Shown here: positions 29,076 through 34,730 of the stretch, one piece after another | Layout: each line of letters starts with the position of its first letter | Numbering within the stretch: the stretch's first letter is position 1 | Assembly: GCF_900218065.1 (NCBI RefSeq) | Contig: NZ_OBMU01000001.1 | Location: 850,060-914,059 of the forward strand | DNA length: 64,000 nucleotides | From: Novosphingobium sp. Chol11 | GTDB lineage: Bacteria; Pseudomonadota; Alphaproteobacteria; Sphingomonadales; Sphingomonadaceae | Reading direction: 5' to 3' | Program-made: the position numbers and the translations under genes | Notes under the pieces: model-generated | The model's input: only the letters and a program-made list of their open reading frames with translations | What the model was told of the DNA's origin: nothing | Database searches by the model: none

Positions 29076-29548
29076 TTGTCTTCGACCTCAAATGCAATTC
29101 CCATGGCCATGTGTTCGAAGCTTGGTTCGGGTCCAGCGCGGACTATGAGGATCAGTTGGCCCGCGGTTTGCTGGCGTGCCCGATGTGCGGCGATCCGGAG
29201 GTGTCGAAAGCGCTGATGGCGCCCGCCGTCGCAGCAAAAGGGAACAGCAGGAAGCCGGAAATGATGCCTGCGGACGCGCCGACCGCTCCGGTCGCCATGG
29301 CAGGAGACGAGGCGCGGATGCGCGAAATGGTGCAGGCGCTGGCACAGGCGCAAGCAAAGGTCCTGGAAGATTCGACCTGGGTCGGCCGGGGCTTTGCCGA
29401 ACATGCCCGCGCCATGCATTATGGCGAGAAGGAGCGGTCGAGTATCCACGGCGAAGTCGCCCCCGACGAAGCGCGCGCGCTGGTTTCGGAAGGCGTCGAG
29501 GTCGCGCCGCTGTTGTTTCCTGTCGTGCCGCCCGAAGCGAAGAATTGA
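29072..29548 (+). CDS. DUF1178 family protein (GTG start)
   Basis: 158 residues. The N-terminus I-V-F-D-L-K-C-N-S-H-G-H-V-F-E-A-W-F and L-L-A-C-P-M-C-G are diagnostic of DUF1178. The Cys/His pattern suggests a small zinc ribbon. The C-terminal W-V-G-R-G-F-A-E-H-A-R-A-M-H-Y-G-E segment is also conserved. Function is unknown. The start is GTG 29072, overlapping the nitrilase TGA (GTGA); upstream extension to 28931 is antisense-like shadow. Confidence 0.88.
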   Translation: MIVFDLKCNSHGHVFEAWFGSSADYEDQLARGLLACPMCGDPEVSKALMAPAVAAKGNSRKPEMMPADAPTAPVAMAGDEARMREMVQALAQAQAKVLEDSTWVGRGFAEHARAMHYGEKERSSIHGEVAPDEARALVSEGVEVAPLLFPVVPPEAKN

Positions 29549-29574
29549 CCGCGCCGCATCGGCAGCATAGAGCC
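29546..29574 (+). promoter_or_regulatory. Candidate original tRNA-Arg promoter, now driving the truncated copy
   Basis: TTGACC at about 29546 overlaps the DUF1178 stop, with ATAGAG about 16 nt downstream, just before the tRNA 5' half. It fits a sigma-70-like promoter for the ancestral tRNA-Arg gene. Since the island separates it from the intact tRNA at 34568, it may now transcribe only the broken copy. Weak -10 match, so tentative. Confidence 0.3.
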
Positions 29575-29582
29575 ACCAGCGG

Positions 29583-29623
29583 GCGCCCATAGCTCAGCAG
29601 GATAGAGCGTCGGATTCCTAATC
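29583..29623 (+). repeat. attL-like repeat: 5' half of tRNA-Arg(CCT)
   Basis: Identical to bases 1-41 of the intact tRNA at 34568-34644, ending inside the 3' strand of the anticodon stem. After it the sequence diverges, apart from a shared GAA 1 nt further on. It cannot fold into a full tRNA. It marks the left end of the island. Confidence 0.9.
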
Positions 29624-29660
29624 TGAATGTGAGCGCCAGAAAACGGAAGAAATCCGCCGT

Positions 29661-30435
29661 TTATGCTCGCTTTTTCTTAGATTGTGACGCGGAATGTGAC
29701 GCGAAGGCTTCAGCGACCCGGTCGAAAGCCGTTGTCGTGGCGTGCGGTTTGATGTGGGCATAGCGCTGCGTCACAGAGACGCTGGAGTGCGCAAGAGCCT
29801 CGCAGATGTCGAGCAAGTCGGCACCGTTGATCCTCGCCCAGCTGGCGAAGGTGTGGCGAAGATCGTGGAAATGAAAGTCGACAAGACCGGCGGCCTTCAC
29901 CGCCTGTTCCCAGCGGCGCTTATGGTTGGTCGCGTCGAAGACCGGCCCTTTGCGGTCCTTCGGCCTGGTGCGGCCGAGAGCCGCGCGCAGTACAGGCGCG
30001 ATCTGGACAGCATGGGGCTTTCCGCCTTTCATGGTCGGCAGAGTGATGGTTGAGGCGCGCAGGTCCACCTGATGCCATTCTATCGCGAAAATCGAACCCC
30101 GGCGCAGGCCAGTAGTGACAGCGCACAGGATGATGTCGCGCATGGCTGGGTGAGCCGCGCGCAGCAGGTCGGCGAATTCATCGCCGCTTGCAAAGCGGAC
30201 ACGGAAAGGCGCTTCCTTAGCTTTCAGGCCCTTCCAGTTGATGCGCGGCATGATCTTGCCATGCATGTTCGCGGCCCAGTTCATCGCAGCGCGCAGATGG
30301 GCAAAGTCGCGGTTTACAGACTGAGGTTGGATCGGCGCGATGAAGCCCTTGTCTGTGATCGCGCGGGCTCGCCATGAGGCGCTGCGCTCCAGCATGTCAT
30401 CGGTTGCCTTGATGCTGCCACCGCGCCGGGCTGCC
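29661..30435 (-). pseudogene. Tyrosine recombinase/integrase, 5'-truncated
   Basis: The C-terminal catalytic domain is complete: Arg in T-G-L-R-R-G, His-x-x-Arg in H-D-L-R-H-T-F, His in A-H-S-S-V-S-V-T-Q and the nucleophile Tyr in R-Y-A-H-I. Part of the core-binding domain remains (residues about 1-75 from the internal ATG 30395). Upstream the frame reads on to about 30435 and then meets sequence that encodes, on the other strand, a phage terminase. Family members are about 380-400 residues, so at least 120 N-terminal residues, including the arm-binding domain, are gone. An ATG at 30395 could give a 244-residue product, but recombination activity is unlikely. Confidence 0.82.
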
Positions 30436-30685
30436 CGGTAAGGCGAAGAACGTCATCACCAGCGGACGCCTGCAATTCGATGCCGGTTGGCTCGACGTGG
30501 TGCAGGCCTTCATGGCGATCAGGCCGGAAATCACCAAGGGCGGGACGCAGGTCACCTATGTGGCGAGCCGCGCGGGCGGCGCGGGTCATGCCGATCTGGC
30601 CTGGGCAATCATGCACGCCCTTTTCTTCGAACCGCTCGACATCACCGAGCCTGTCGGCGGCGGCTCAACCGTGGAGATCATGTAA
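30434..30685 (+). pseudogene. Phage terminase large subunit, C-terminal fragment (P2 GpP-like)
   Basis: An open stretch of about 80 residues ending at TAA 30683-30685. The S-G-R-L-Q-F-D-A-G-W, T-Y-V-A-S-R and H-A-D-L-A-W-A-I-M-H-A-L segments match the C-terminus of P2-type terminase ATPase/nuclease subunits. The N-terminal 500 or so residues are missing; the frame begins at the junction with the opposing integrase remnant. The stop overlaps the portal start (TAATG). Confidence 0.75.
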
Positions 30686-31062
30686 TGCAGGAAGTCGTGG
30701 AGCAGGGGACAAGGCCCGCCGAACCGATCGTTTTCAGCTTCGGCGACCCAGAGAGCGTGCTGGACCGGCGCGAGCTATTCGACCTGTTCGAGGTCGCCCA
30801 TAACGGGCGCTGGTTCGAACCGGCAGTGCCGATGACGATGTTGGGCAAGACCTATCGCATGGTCAGCCATCACCAGAGCGCGATCATCCTGAAGCGCAAC
30901 CTGCTGGTCGGCAGCTTCAAGCCTTCGCGCTGGTTGAGCCGGGGCGACTTCTCGCGCTGGGTCCTGGACTGGCTGATCTTCGGCAACGCCTATCTGGAGC
31001 GGCTCGACAATATCGCGGGGCGGCCGATGACGCTGAAGCCGTCGCCCGCCGCTTATACGCGG
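30685..31062 (+). pseudogene. Phage portal protein, N-terminal fragment (P2 GpQ-like)
   Basis: About 125 residues from ATG 30685. F-S-F-G-D-P-E-S-V-L-D-R-R, N-G-R-W-F-E-P, H-H-Q-S-A-I-I-L-K-R-N and D-F-S-R-W-V-L-D-W-L-I-F-G-N-A-Y-L-E match P2 portal proteins, which form the head-tail connector. Similarity ends at S-P-A-A-Y-T-R near 31060. The frame continues without homology to 31173. Beyond this point a different frame encodes DNA ligase. It is broken by a deletion that removed two thirds of the gene. Confidence 0.78.
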
Positions 31063-31358
31063 GTGGGGATCACTTCGTCATCGTCGGCACAGAGCAGGGC
31101 ATTGGCCCCACCACCGCCTTATGTGCGCGCGAGACACCTCACGGCCTCGAATATGTCGGCGGCGCCATGCTGACCCTCACAGCGAAGGAGCGGGAGAAAT
31201 TCTGGCAAACTGCTGAGCTGTTGCGGAGACCCTCCCCCCCGCTCAAGATCGACAAGCGAAAAGGCGCTCAGTGGATGCAGCCGAGCCTGAGAGCGCGAGT
31301 GCGTCACCTTCGGGGCGAAGAGAAGCTGCGGCATGCAACAGTGCTTGAGTTCCTATGA
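31063..31358 (+). pseudogene. ATP-dependent DNA ligase, C-terminal fragment
   Basis: Open in frame from the portal junction: D-H-F-V-I-V-G, then E-Y-V-G-G-A-M-L-T-L and a C-terminal L-R-A-R-V-R-H-L-R-G-E-E-K-L-R-H-A-T. This pattern is that of the OB-fold domain of bacterial ATP-dependent (LigD-type or short) DNA ligases. The nucleotidyltransferase domain with the catalytic Lys is absent. An internal ATG at 31167 exists but would give only 63 residues. The stop overlaps the next ORF (ATGA). Confidence 0.6.
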
Positions 31359-31534
31359 TCGACGGTCGTTCACGCGAGGAGCTAAACGCGCTTCCATGCA
31401 CAGCCCCCGATCTGGAGGACGAGGCGGAGCACTTCATTGTTTGTCCTGAATGCGGGCAGGCTTTCGACTGCCGGAAGCTTGGCGATGTGCTGCATCATGA
31501 TGAGCCCGGGCATGAGCCGCTGACGGTGCAATAG
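31355..31534 (+). CDS. 59-residue small protein with a putative zinc knuckle
   Basis: ATG 31355 overlaps the ligase-fragment stop. The product holds V-C-P-E-C-G-Q-A-F-D-C and, 11 residues on, L-H-H-D-E-P-G-H, so two or three Cys and two His could bind zinc. Acidic elsewhere. Similar short proteins seem common in alphaproteobacterial accessory DNA, but I know no function. Its coupling to the ligase gene suggests the pair was once an operon. Confidence 0.6.
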   Translation: MIDGRSREELNALPCTAPDLEDEAEHFIVCPECGQAFDCRKLGDVLHHDEPGHEPLTVQ

Positions 31535-31690
31535 TTCGCTCGGTGCCGGACCGAGAAAAGCTTCGATTGCGACCCAAACCTCAACCCGGCCCGACGAAGC
31601 TGCATTACCGTGACTCGCTGTCCGACGCTAATTATCGATGTGGTTATCTGTAATCGATTCTCTGATCGAACGGATTAAGCCACCGCCACT

Positions 31691-31718
31691 AAAAAGCCCC
31701 GCCGTCGAAGGGCGGGGC
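31691..31718 (-). terminator. Rho-independent terminator (minus strand)
   Basis: GCCCCGCC (31696-31703) and GGCGGGGC (31711-31718) form an 8-bp GC stem; on the minus strand it is followed by TTTTT (31695-31691). It has no obvious minus-strand gene immediately upstream, so it may be a relic, or end read-through from the SRAP gene. Confidence 0.6.
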
Positions 31719-31839
31719 CAGTTAGGGTCGCAATGCAGGATACCTGCGCGGCTATAGCATCATGGCGGAGCGGGAATATCAATATGTCTTTCGCTATACT
31801 CGTATCGATCCTCACCGCCTTGTATGCTTAACAGCTACA

Positions 31840-31896
31840 TTGGTTAGTTCTCGTTTACCTTGGAACATCGCTGCCGCTCTCACGGTTGGTTAGTTC
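31840..31896. repeat. Two TTGGTTAGTTC direct repeats, possible operator
   Basis: Exact 11-bp copies at 31840-31850 and 31886-31896, spaced 46 bp start-to-start (about four helical turns). They end 17 nt before the start codon at 31913. The placement suits a repressor or activator site. The protein that would bind is unknown. Confidence 0.4.
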
Positions 31897-31912
31897 CAAG
31901 ATGGAGGAAGAG

Positions 31913-32122
31913 ATGTCCAACGAGTCCGGGCCGCCAATGATCGCCGAGTTCACCCTCAACGACGGCAACCCTGTCTCAATCAATATGGAGCAGATCGACT
32001 ATTTCCAGCCCTGTGACGATGGAACGCTGGTCGTGTTCGCCGACGGCCGCCAGCTCGAGCTTCAGGAGAGCTACGACGCCGTGGCGGAGGTGATGAACCC
32101 CGAGCGGCAGGCGGGCTGCTAG
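31913..32122 (+). CDS. 69-residue hypothetical protein
   Basis: Starts M-S-N-E-S-G at 31913 with GGAGG 5 nt upstream; a longer frame exists but this ribosome site decides it. The product has a small beta-rich pattern (E-F-T-L-N-D-G-N-P-V-S-I-N-M-E-Q-I, then L-V-V-F-A-D-G-R-Q-L), loosely like FlbD-type small proteins. That resemblance is weak. It is convergent with the SRAP gene, overlapping by 4 bp. Two 11-bp direct repeats precede it. Confidence 0.6.
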   Translation: MSNESGPPMIAEFTLNDGNPVSINMEQIDYFQPCDDGTLVVFADGRQLELQESYDAVAEVMNPERQAGC

Positions 32123-32775
32123 AGCAGCGTGGGCCCTTCGACCGGAGCCGCCTTTCTCTGGAACCACGGCGTGGCGGTATGCTCGACGCGCAGCCGATCG
32201 GCAGGATAGGGCCGGTCAAGCCGGTATAGCTCCTCAAGCGGCGCGGTGAGCCAAAAATCCCAATCCTCTGGATCGATGATCACGGGCGAGCGATCGTGGA
32301 TGTCGATCAGGTCCGGGGCGTTGTCCGTCATTACGCCGGTGAAGACACTGCCCCACTCGTCGCTGTTTGCCCAAAGCCCGGCCCAGGCGAAGATGGGCTG
32401 GTCCTTCACCGATAGCCAGGTCTCGGTCATGCAGCCGGGCTCGCCACAGGCTTCGCAGTAGCGCGCCGTCGGGATCAGGCAGCGGTTCTCCGGCTTGGAG
32501 GCGGCCCACTTCCAGAAATAAGTATGCAGCTTGTCGAAGCGAGCGTTGTTCACCGGCTTAGGCTTCAGCGGCTTGCCGGTCTTCTTGCTCTTCTGGATGA
32601 GCGGAAAGCCCCAGGTCATCTGCTCCAGCACCCGCTCTCCATTCTCGACGCGGATCACAGTACCGGGCTGGGCAGGATGGATCTGGAGCGGTCCTTCATT
32701 GAAGCGCGCGCCTTTGCGCGCGCCGAACAGGTTTAGCACCTTCTGCGTGTCGCCGCGTTCCGCTCGATTGCACAT
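32119..32775 (-). CDS. SRAP-family protein (YedK/HMCES-like abasic-site sensor)
   Basis: 218 residues from ATG 32775, giving an N-terminal M-C, the catalytic Cys2 that cross-links to abasic sites in single-stranded DNA after Met removal. Other family residues are visible: Asn in V-N-N-A-R-F, a Glu in Y-C-E-A-C-G-E and His in I-H-D-R-S-P-V-I. Extra Cys residues near E-A-C-G-E-P-G-C are unusual and may bind metal. A GTTC-N7-GTTC box lies 50 bp upstream, so SOS induction is plausible. Island copies of SRAP genes are frequent on phages and plasmids. Confidence 0.88.
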   Translation of the reverse strand: MCNRAERGDTQKVLNLFGARKGARFNEGPLQIHPAQPGTVIRVENGERVLEQMTWGFPLIQKSKKTGKPLKPKPVNNARFDKLHTYFWKWAASKPENRCLIPTARYCEACGEPGCMTETWLSVKDQPIFAWAGLWANSDEWGSVFTGVMTDNAPDLIDIHDRSPVIIDPEDWDFWLTAPLEELYRLDRPYPADRLRVEHTATPWFQRKAAPVEGPTLL

Positions 32776-32824
32776 GACTAGAAGTTGAGAAGCGACAGGC
32801 CGAGAGTCAACCGGACTCCCGTTT

Positions 32825-32839
32825 GTTCTCATTTCGTTC
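32825..32839 (-). promoter_or_regulatory. LexA-type SOS box (GTTC-N7-GTTC)
   Basis: GTTC at 32825-32828 and GTTC at 32836-32839, exactly 7 nt apart, which is the alphaproteobacterial LexA consensus. It lies in the 95-bp divergent gap, 50 bp before the SRAP start and 32 bp before the plus-strand ORF, and could control either gene. Confidence 0.65.
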
Positions 32840-32870
32840 TACAATCGGGCATCGAATCGGAGGACGGAAA

Positions 32871-33158
32871 ATGCAGCAGGAACGACACGCACAATTCATC
32901 GGCTCATCGCATCCGGACGTGAATTTGGAGTTTGGCGACGGCAAATGGTTCGTGGCCGTGCGGCGGGCTGAGCCTCAATCCCACTCGACCCACGAGCGGC
33001 AAGGTGAGGGCTATTTCTCCCACGTCGACGCTGCCCGCGCGGCGGTTGATCTGGCGATCTCGCGCGGGTTGACCGTTCCCACCGAGGCCGAGCTTATCGA
33101 GGCTGCTGAAGAGTTTCGCAGCTTCGTTGATGGCGAAGACCGCGCCTTTGTCATGTAA
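32871..33158 (+). CDS. 95-residue hypothetical protein, divergent from SRAP
   Basis: ATG 32871 follows a GGAGGACGGAAA ribosome site. The product is acidic, with a short N-terminal beta part (L-E-F-G-D-G-K-W-F-V-A-V-R-R) and a helical C-terminus (A-A-R-A-A-V-D-L-A, E-A-A-E-E-F-R-S-F). No family recognised. It may share the SOS-type box with the SRAP gene. Confidence 0.6.
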   Translation: MQQERHAQFIGSSHPDVNLEFGDGKWFVAVRRAEPQSHSTHERQGEGYFSHVDAARAAVDLAISRGLTVPTEAELIEAAEEFRSFVDGEDRAFVM

Positions 33159-33170
33159 GGGCGCAGGCCG

Positions 33171-33365
33171 ATGGACCAGATTGAGATCGCGCGGCGCGGC
33201 CGAGACCCTGTCCTGCGCGAATATAATGCCATGATGAAGCAGATCGAACGCGGAGATCCGATGCACCCTCGGGAAGTTCAGGACATGATCAATGACCTGG
33301 TCTCAGAGGGGTATAACACCCAAGCTGCCGCGCTCGCTCGGGCGGAGGTGAATTGGGATCAGTGA
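33171..33365 (+). CDS. 64-residue hypothetical protein
   Basis: Starts 12 bp after the previous stop. Mostly helical and charged (M-K-Q-I-E-R-G-D, V-Q-D-M-I-N-D-L-V-S-E-G). The ribosome site is weak. Likely real as part of the small-ORF operon, but no function can be given. Confidence 0.5.
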   Translation: MDQIEIARRGRDPVLREYNAMMKQIERGDPMHPREVQDMINDLVSEGYNTQAAALARAEVNWDQ

Positions 33366-33405
33366 GCGCCGAAGTTGGGCGCCAGCATGCAGAGTGGAGG
33401 GATGA

Positions 33406-33735
33406 GTGTCCCGCTATTTGGATGGCCTGAAGGTTCCCACCTGTCTGTTTGAAGCAGCAGCCTGGCGGTATGCCGTCAAGGTTGGTTGTGGCTGCGGGCA
33501 TTTCGCTGCGTTTCAACCGCACGGCATCTGGTGGCATTTCCACCGCAAGGGCTGGCCTGACGATTTCAGAAGTGCTCGATCAAGGATGTGGTGTCGCGTC
33601 TGCCGACAATCCACGGGGGAAAAGGTGAGGCCGCGAAGGTTGGATGCGATCAGGCCGTACACGGGCAGGCTGATTGCTCTGCCGATGCCTGATGAGCGCG
33701 AATGGAAGCGGGTTGTAAACAGGTTCAGAGGGTGA
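33406..33735 (+). CDS. 109-residue Cys-rich hypothetical protein (GTG start)
   Basis: GTG 33406 has GGAGG 5 nt upstream. The sequence has G-C-G-C-G-H-F-A-A-F and W-C-R-V-C-R-Q, two Cys pairs that could form a zinc finger. The C-terminal half is basic, as in DNA-binding phage proteins. I do not recognise the family. Confidence 0.6.
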   Translation: MSRYLDGLKVPTCLFEAAAWRYAVKVGCGCGHFAAFQPHGIWWHFHRKGWPDDFRSARSRMWCRVCRQSTGEKVRPRRLDAIRPYTGRLIALPMPDEREWKRVVNRFRG

Positions 33736-34567
33736 ACCTGGCCGGAACCGCGCCGCAGGATGCGCGTCTCGGTGCAGTCTCGCCCTCTGCTTCACCGCCT
33801 CACCCAAGGGGGCGAGACACCCGGATACACTCAGGCGCGCGGAACGATTGGTTCGACACAGATCGGACCTCGATCCGGTGATGCGCGCCGCGCTTGCCCC
33901 CACGCCCCGCCCGCTCCTTCTTCCTATGGAAATTTTGCACCTAAAGCGCCTTGGATGCAGCGCTGGACCTTCGGTGGACCGGCACTTCGTGAAGGCTGCA
34001 GCGGTTCAGGTCCGCCGATGCATTTTTTTCAGATCGTGACCAGCCAGCGAACGGCGGATTTCTGCCGATTTTCGTTCGAGGAGACGGGGTGGGATCGGGA
34101 AAAGCGTTACCTCCGTCACCTTTCCCCATTTCCCCGGCTAAATTGTTGAAAAGACTTATTTTTATTGTGACGTATCAGCCGTTACCTTTCGTCACTATTG
34201 AGGGCAAGTTCTGTTACCTCATTGATATGTAATGATATTTTTTATGTCATTTGTAACCTTATAGAGGCGTTACCCGGTGACAGAAAGGTAACGGAAAAGT
34301 AACGGCAAAAACGGCTGATTTCCGCCAATGTAACGGAGGTAACGCTTTTCCCGCGCACCCCCCTCAACCTAATCCCGAATTTGCCTTCGCATGCGACCGA
34401 AGCAGCATGAGAGCCTGTAGCTGCGATCGTCGCTGATGAATGTGCCGGGCTTTGTGACCAGATTGTGCCGCGATGTGCCGCAGGTAGCCGCTTCGTTCCG
34501 GGATCAGTTGACGGCGGCGGCCAAGGTCACTAACGAAAACGCCCGGAAAGCTTGGACTTTCAGGTGT
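33736..34567. other. Gene-poor right end of the island with GTTACC motif cluster
   Basis: No credible complete gene in 832 bp; the open frames (33760-34149 plus, 33941-34129 minus) have no good start or composition. From about 34140 the sequence is markedly AT-richer. It holds a 24-bp inverted repeat (34096-34119 and 34330-34353, one mismatch) and repeated GTTACC/GGTAAC words. It may be a replication or control region, or a fossil of the 3' end of a replication gene. Confidence 0.55.
34096..34353. repeat. 24-bp inverted repeat flanking GTTACC/GGTAAC words
   Basis: Arms 34096-34119 and 34330-34353 match at 23 of 24 positions when one is reverse-complemented. Between or within them GTTACC occurs at 34106, 34181, 34213 and 34269, and GGTAAC at 34287 and 34338. 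The central part is AT-rich. Such a layout is seen in iteron or operator regions. No initiator gene is adjacent. Confidence 0.6.
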
Positions 34568-34644
34568 GCGCCCATAGCTCAGCAGGATAGAGCGTCGGAT
34601 TCCTAATCCGAAGGCCACAGGTTCGAATCCTGTTGGGCGCACCA
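34568..34644 (+). tRNA. tRNA-Arg (anticodon CCT)
   Basis: Complete cloverleaf: acceptor GCGCCCA pairs with TGGGCGC (34634-34640), D-arm GCTC/GAGC, anticodon arm TCGGA-TTCCTAA-TCCGA with anticodon CCT, T-arm ACAGG-TTCGAAT-CCTGT, and encoded ACCA. It reads AGG codons. The 5' 41 bases are repeated at 29583, so this gene was rebuilt by integration: its 5' half comes from the element and its 3' half from the host. Confidence 0.96.
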
Positions 34645-34730
34645 CTTCTTCAAACAACGGAGAGAATTGCGGTTGGCGCTACCAACCGGATGTGGTGAGC
34701 CGCGCTGCCATAGCAGGCGGCCCCCTTCAT

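Follow-up and report, generated by a model that had tools for sequence, protein, structure and literature searches.

A prophage remnant that splits tRNA-Arg(CCT) in Novosphingobium sp. Chol11 probably supplies the rebuilt gene with its own promoter

Bacterial tRNA genes that are rebuilt by an integrating island keep their original promoter, with very few exceptions (PMC8371274). Among the 3919 islands of Islander, 159 have a 5' tRNA fragment (PMC4383910), the element pTN3 leaves tRNA-Leu separated from its promoter (PMC5495485), and an island at dusA gives its target a new promoter, as demonstrated with a lacZ fusion in a paper that also cites SXT in prfC (PMC8409611). Islands with 5' tRNA fragments and supplied promoters are a kind already known. 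This article discusses a locus of this kind in a 64,000-nucleotide (nt) stretch of Novosphingobium sp. Chol11 (NZ_OBMU01000001.1), called the window hereafter, in whose positions all coordinates are given. A 5-kilobase (kb) island between a truncated and an intact copy of tRNA-Arg(CCT) is, by its sequence, the remnant of a prophage, and we consider it very probable that the whole locus results from recombination by the integrase of a temperate phage at the anticodon arm of this tRNA gene, and that the promoter of the gene was swapped for that of the element.

The tRNA-Arg(CCT) gene is the sole tRNA that ARAGORN found in the window (Table 1), and a repeat search gave a 45-nt direct repeat, the two copies of which lie 4985 nt apart and differ by one mismatch. 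The repeat runs from tRNA position 1 to the 3' strand of the anticodon stem, that is, it covers the 5' half of the gene, as the initial annotation of this DNA had held, while the length of 41 base pairs (bp) stated there is that of its uninterrupted part. Such a match between the truncated copy and a tRNA so far away is, as the comparison reads, not chance. The truncated copy is scored at 31 bits by the Rfam tRNA model, just above the gathering score of 29, and the best other match to tRNA-Arg(CCT) in its own genome reaches 79%, there being no other close whole copy. The intact tRNA stands at the right end behind DNA of the element, which the repeat and the loci of relatives bear out, and the integrase gene is at the truncated side, both as first annotated. 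An intact tRNA at one end, a fragment of the same tRNA at the other and a recombinase at an end make up the arrangement of tRNA-targeting tyrosine-recombinase islands, and the 5' fragment lies upstream of the intact tRNA in identical orientation, as in the Islander type. Because the integrase of the window, when aligned with its full-length relatives, is without their first ~120 residues, the promoter swap is probably permanent in Chol11.

Relatives carry the uninterrupted site as far as the left flank and the tRNA are concerned. DUF1178 is next to tRNA-Arg(CCT) in 16 of 19 relative loci, the usual order being nitrilase gene, DUF1178 gene and tRNA; DUF1178 is absent from the locus in two of the exceptions, and only its end, 1.4 kb off, is found in the third. 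In a survey of the genus, 60 of 94 genomes were examined and six that gave tRNA-Arg(CCG) were dropped, and in 45 of the resulting 54 tRNA-Arg(CCT) genes DUF1178 lies 17-92 nt upstream of the tRNA. The native promoter in relatives has the form TTGAC[CG]-N17-TAGAG and starts 38-41 nt before the tRNA. The window has the same DUF1178 gene, and TTGACC-N17-TAGAGC, on the left side of its truncated copy. The left flank therefore adjoined the tRNA in the past; the split in the host gene fell in the anticodon arm, and the truncated half kept the host promoter, which the initial annotation had rightly placed before it.

The promoter swap described in the initial annotation is borne out, but its remark that no clear promoter is seen before the intact tRNA is not. 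The element DNA there holds TTGACG-N17-TAACGA, starting 60 nt upstream of the gene, and the pattern TTG[AC][CG]N-N17-TANNNN precedes the tRNA or its half in 15 of 15 related element ends read, which cover four tRNA species. Eleven ends have the start of the first hexamer at -59 to -62, and the other four have it at -50, -44, -38 and -37. When spacings of 10-25 nt were tested, TA followed TTG[AC][CG] 16 times at 17 nt and at most once at any other. Shuffled single ends fit the pattern in 0.8-2.8% (14 ends), and in conventional relatives it lies upstream of the 3' half in 1 of 11. Pairwise identity among 14 ends (that of the element G522, a near-copy of the window's end, being omitted) is 81% for the -35 hexamer, 60% for the -10 hexamer and 26% for the spacer. 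In addition, native promoters of the same gene have a like form in 41 of 46 genomes, which counts for the promoter reading, and by this native standard TTGACG-N17-TAACGA is a good promoter candidate. The TGTGNC repeats just upstream of it are probably arm-type sites of the integrase. A terminator right after the 5' half was also considered as a conserved feature and rejected: a hairpin followed by T is present in some elements only, and folding of 19 ends gave no consistent excess over shuffles (z -1.7 to 1.1, one -3.8).

According to the mechanism proposed here, the phage integrase would recombine at the anticodon arm of tRNA-Arg(CCT), with the crossover presumably in the anticodon loop. The host gene would thereby be split, its promoter and 5' half staying at the integrase end (attL, the left attachment site), and the tRNA would be rebuilt at the far end (attR, the right attachment site) behind element DNA, two steps that the arrangement of the locus itself displays. 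TTGACG-N17-TAACGA in the element DNA would then transcribe the rebuilt tRNA, and the lysogen would manage without the native promoter.

Close relatives of the integrase (59% identity or more) occur in 5 of the 94 genomes of the genus, the own genome included, and the next match is at 36%; the four others, G117, G021, G056 and G048, show 59-76% identity. Among named records, those closest to the integrase come from Novosphingobium. Matches were given by 3 of 397 genomes of a family sample (E 1e-40) and by 4 of 385 genomes of a class sample (E 1e-50), the own genome included in both, and some of these matches fall outside the integrase clade described below. Eight elements were read at both ends, namely that of the window, those of the four genomes just named, G298 of the same family, and G519 and G520 of Novosphingobium. 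In all of them the 5'-half fragment is beside the integrase gene and the intact tRNA is at the other end, 4.2-43 kb away. Their targets are tRNA-Arg(CCT) and, in Novosphingobium, tRNA-Thr(TGT); halves of tRNA-Arg(TCT), tRNA-Pro(TGG) and tRNA-Val(TAC) at further loci bring the tRNA kinds to five in all, the anticodons of halves and of Thr genes having been read by eye. The full-length integrase gene stands uninterrupted beside the half in relatives. Moreover, at six loci (L096, L099, L168, L249, L252 and L117, the last a circular phage record, PP496355.1) the half has element DNA on both sides, and these are apparent unintegrated phage attachment sites (attP). As they carry promoter and 5' half, the phage itself would carry both, and the earlier view that the tRNA had to acquire a new promoter after insertion is not upheld. 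The phage of L117, with its clade integrase, was recorded from Microcystis viridis; the other sources of clade integrases in this analysis are alphaproteobacteria and unassigned contigs, and the phage may really belong to some other bacterium of the culture.

The arrangement follows the integrase phylogeny to a large extent. For the tree, 128 loci were motif-scanned for tRNA halves beside the integrase gene, and 50 rows were used; loci without a half in the flank, near-copies, truncated integrases (those of the window and G048) and 24 unclassed loci whose sole tRNA motif lies on the start side of the integrase gene were left out, and 42 loci of a further list of at least 80 were scanned. Five labels (L051, L173, L175, L249 and L250) were given by BLAST or by eye, and the midpoint root serves for drawing only. 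The 50 rows comprise 23 with a 5' half, two with a whole tRNA (G522 and G523), 23 labelled conventional and two (L173 and L175) of mirror arrangement, in which the integrase gene reads into a 3' half lying beyond the core from it. A branch with support 98/93 separates all 23 5'-half rows, both whole-tRNA rows, the conventional L250 and the mirror L173 from the other 22 conventional rows and L175. Conventional rows with a whole tRNA beside the integrase gene bear a motif label only, their far ends being unseen, and a form like G522 could hide among them. In the clade, the tRNA half would thus usually lie on the side of the core away from the integrase gene, and the near-palindromic anticodon arm would be usable in either orientation, one of which keeps the native promoter while the other loses it.

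In G522 each end bears a complete tRNA-Arg(CCT), and so the attP of this element holds the whole tRNA gene. G523 has a complete tRNA at the integrase end, the one end seen. Both are nested in the tree among rows with a 5' half only, and the whole-tRNA form looks derived. Both complete tRNAs of G522 (L141 and L142) are chimeric, and each acceptor stem, as read by eye, has one imperfect pair, G-U at 3-70 in attR and A-C at 7-66 in attL. At L260 (G666:C2:340162-341175), three tandem 3' tRNA-like pieces lie downstream of a distant integrase relative.

The virus-type promoter sometimes seems to stay where no virus is seen. Among the 54 tRNA-Arg(CCT) genes of the survey, eight have an element-type promoter at -59 to -61, and five of these belong to elements with an integrase; neither promoter type fits another five genes (G031, G042, G043, G053 and G059). 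In G037, G041 and G051 the 1.5-1.6 kb read upstream shows neither an integrase nor a 5' fragment. In G037, DUF1178 is 92 nt away and is followed by TTGACC and then by the element-like promoter, and in G051 DUF1178 is 1386 nt away and arm-like repeats are present at -105 and -93; G041 is the weakest case, the stretch read there having neither arm repeats nor DUF1178. When the last 64 nt were compared with 500 shuffles, G037 and G051 beat all 500 and G041 beat 499, and each of the three aligns with an element end at a higher score than with any of 46 other genes. Furthermore, in G519 (Novosphingobium guangzhouense; C72:109691 and 152243; L263 and L264) the 62 nt upstream of the truncated tRNA-Thr, promoter included, are identical to those upstream of the intact one, and the 5' fragment stands ~750 nt from a host gene for which the distance in N. 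silvae is ~130 nt; possibly this promoter was left by an earlier element as a scar.

Table 1. Features of the tRNA-Arg(CCT) locus and the prophage remnant in the window
Feature	Position	Strand	Evidence
Native host promoter, TTGACC-N17-TAGAGC	29545..29573	+	same form at -38 to -41 in 41/46 genus genomes without element-type promoter; putative function
attL: truncated tRNA-Arg(CCT), positions 1-45	29583..29627	+	repeat, 44/45 identical
Tyrosine recombinase (integrase)	29661..30395	-	PF00589, E 1.9e-22; adjoins truncated copy
Two TGTGAC repeats inside 3' end of integrase gene, candidate left arm-type sites	29683..29700	+	read from sequence; putative function
Terminase large subunit fragment	30497..30682	+	PHROG 5713, E 3.7e-17
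Portal protein fragment	30685..31170	+	PHROG 8392, E 5.5e-40
SRAP-domain gene, cargo	32119..32832	-	PF02586, E 2.4e-22
Four TGTG[CA]C repeats, -127, -115, -104 and -94 from tRNA	34441..34479	+	identical spacing in most of 15 related ends; putative function
Element promoter TTGACG-N17-TAACGA before intact tRNA	34508..34536	+	form in 15/15 related ends; putative activity
attR: element-supplied 5' half of tRNA	34568..34612	+	same 45-nt direct repeat
Intact tRNA-Arg(CCT), element 5' half and host 3' half	34568..34644	+	ARAGORN; Rfam RF00005, 75.8 bits

The right part of the island also contains an inverted repeat (34086-34363; 37 nt, 84% complementary) amid many GTTACC/GGTAAC words, with an iteron-like look. 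Outside the window, the own genome has a 5' fragment of tRNA-Arg(CCG) 210 bp upstream of the intact gene (G000:C10:1519141 and 1519351; L265) and, at 1575796, a 3' fragment; both sides were read as having AACTCACCA repeats, and the locus as two island scars or islands at one tRNA.

Several points weigh against the account given above. The promoter pattern was drawn up after most sequences had been read, it fixes TTG and TA itself and so inflates the hexamer identities, and the element ends are related by descent. The -10 hexamer is far from TATAAT, and an E. coli-type consensus sigma-70 scan of 29400-34700 gave 0 promoters against a shuffle mean of 1.6; the native TTGACC-N17-TAGAGC was missed as well, and the scan is a poor test here. 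In the tree, the clade member L250 is conventional. The adjacency of 29582 with 34609 in relatives, on which the initial annotation had staked the island, stands on the left side with DUF1178 and is unconfirmed on the right, because TM2 of the right flank is beside the tRNA in 0 of the 19 relative loci and is not conserved there; the bacterial attachment site (attB) is supported on the left side only. In G117 (C2; L082, L085 and L266), the DUF1178 and nitrilase genes do not precede the 5' fragment but are found past the intact tRNA and oppositely directed, DUF1178 at a distance of ~2.5 kb, which suggests that this site was rearranged, or the site differs.

The lack of a standard sigma-70 match in that scan, together with the place of the hexamers directly downstream of the arm-like TGTGNC repeats, would suit an anatomy as described in which the tRNA is transcribed by read-through from the island and the hexamers bind integrase, excisionase or a host factor. 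This is improbable, because the 17-nt spacing and the -35 hexamer are also those found in native promoters of this gene while the spacer itself is not conserved, in Pro elements and some Arg ones the hexamers shift together with the start of the tRNA (-37 to -50), and three genes retain the element-type promoter where no element is seen. The last argument leans on G037, G041 and G051, whose promoters might themselves be independent native variants or come from displaced elements outside the stretch read, which is doubtful although it deserves serious thought: TTGAC-N17-TA is the common form at the tRNA-Arg(CCT) gene, the stretch read upstream of each was short, and G041 has neither of the other marks and a score that one of the 500 shuffles reaches, but G037 and G051 fit element ends better than they fit any of the 46 other genes, and each keeps traces at its site, the arm-like repeats with distant DUF1178 in G051 and TTGACC between DUF1178 and the element-like promoter in G037. 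That the repeat arose by ordinary duplication or transposition of a part of the tRNA, and not by site-specific integration, is barely credible; the integrase of the window is indeed incomplete, but the same arrangement and integrase family recur at several tRNA genes, this one included, together with prophages of full length and attP forms.

Beyond the integration and promoter swap at this one locus, a wider claim may be put forward only tentatively, and it is unlikely to hold in every part: a phage clade, mostly of alphaproteobacteria, would habitually swap host tRNA promoters for its own, with an attP promoter phased with the arm sites and, in one line, a whole tRNA gene in attP, the promoter would outlive the phage, and integrase binding beside the promoter would, as long as the phage is present, tie the host tRNA supply to the phage state. 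Of the two orientations of the near-palindromic anticodon arm the integrase would use the one by which the native promoter is lost, and attP would for this reason have evolved a portable tRNA promoter. The clade seems to forgo the retention of the original promoter and to carry an apparent portable one, and hence the constraint is testable with related integrases of opposite polarity. The arrangement would offer att sites with a built-in tRNA promoter and also a source of tRNA promoter turnover that resembles ordinary host evolution once the phage is gone, and, if the wider claim is true, transcription of a tRNA gene stays rewired in species no longer carrying the phage. A literature search, in listings and passages of papers, found no report of a bacterial clade with a portable tRNA promoter, nor of clade-wide polarity, a whole-tRNA attP or promoter fossils.

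As in the 5'-fragment islands of Islander, a tyrosine-recombinase island has here displaced a 5' tRNA fragment and rebuilt the gene (PMC4383910), but the available passages on Islander are silent on promoters, whereas here the use of the 5' half goes with a single integrase clade, in which a conserved promoter adjoins the half gene. The archaeal elements of the pTN3 type likewise use the tRNA 5' half, share 41 bp and part the rebuilt tRNA from its original promoter (PMC5495485, PMC8371274). Their att site, however, falls within the integrase gene, so that integration splits it, and according to the review (PMC8371274) the integrase promoter drives the tRNA, while here the 5' half ends at 29627, outside the integrase open reading frame that ends at 29661, full-length relatives have an unbroken integrase gene next to attL, and the promoter is a different one from that of the integrase gene. 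The locus also resembles 5'-end insertions of the dusA and SXT type, in which the promoter and 5' part of the target are replaced (PMC8409611), and promoter-like sequence lies in element DNA before the target in all 15 related ends; the targets of those insertions are protein-coding and that of the present one is a tRNA gene. Finally, in tRNA-dependent lysogeny a phage also sits in a tRNA gene and tRNA function comes from a phage promoter, but there the host tRNA is left without rebuilding and is complemented by a tRNA gene that the phage brings separately (PMC10865867), whereas here the tRNA is rebuilt and is the single tRNA of the window. G522, whose att site itself holds a whole tRNA gene, is intermediate between the present arrangement and tRNA-dependent lysogeny.

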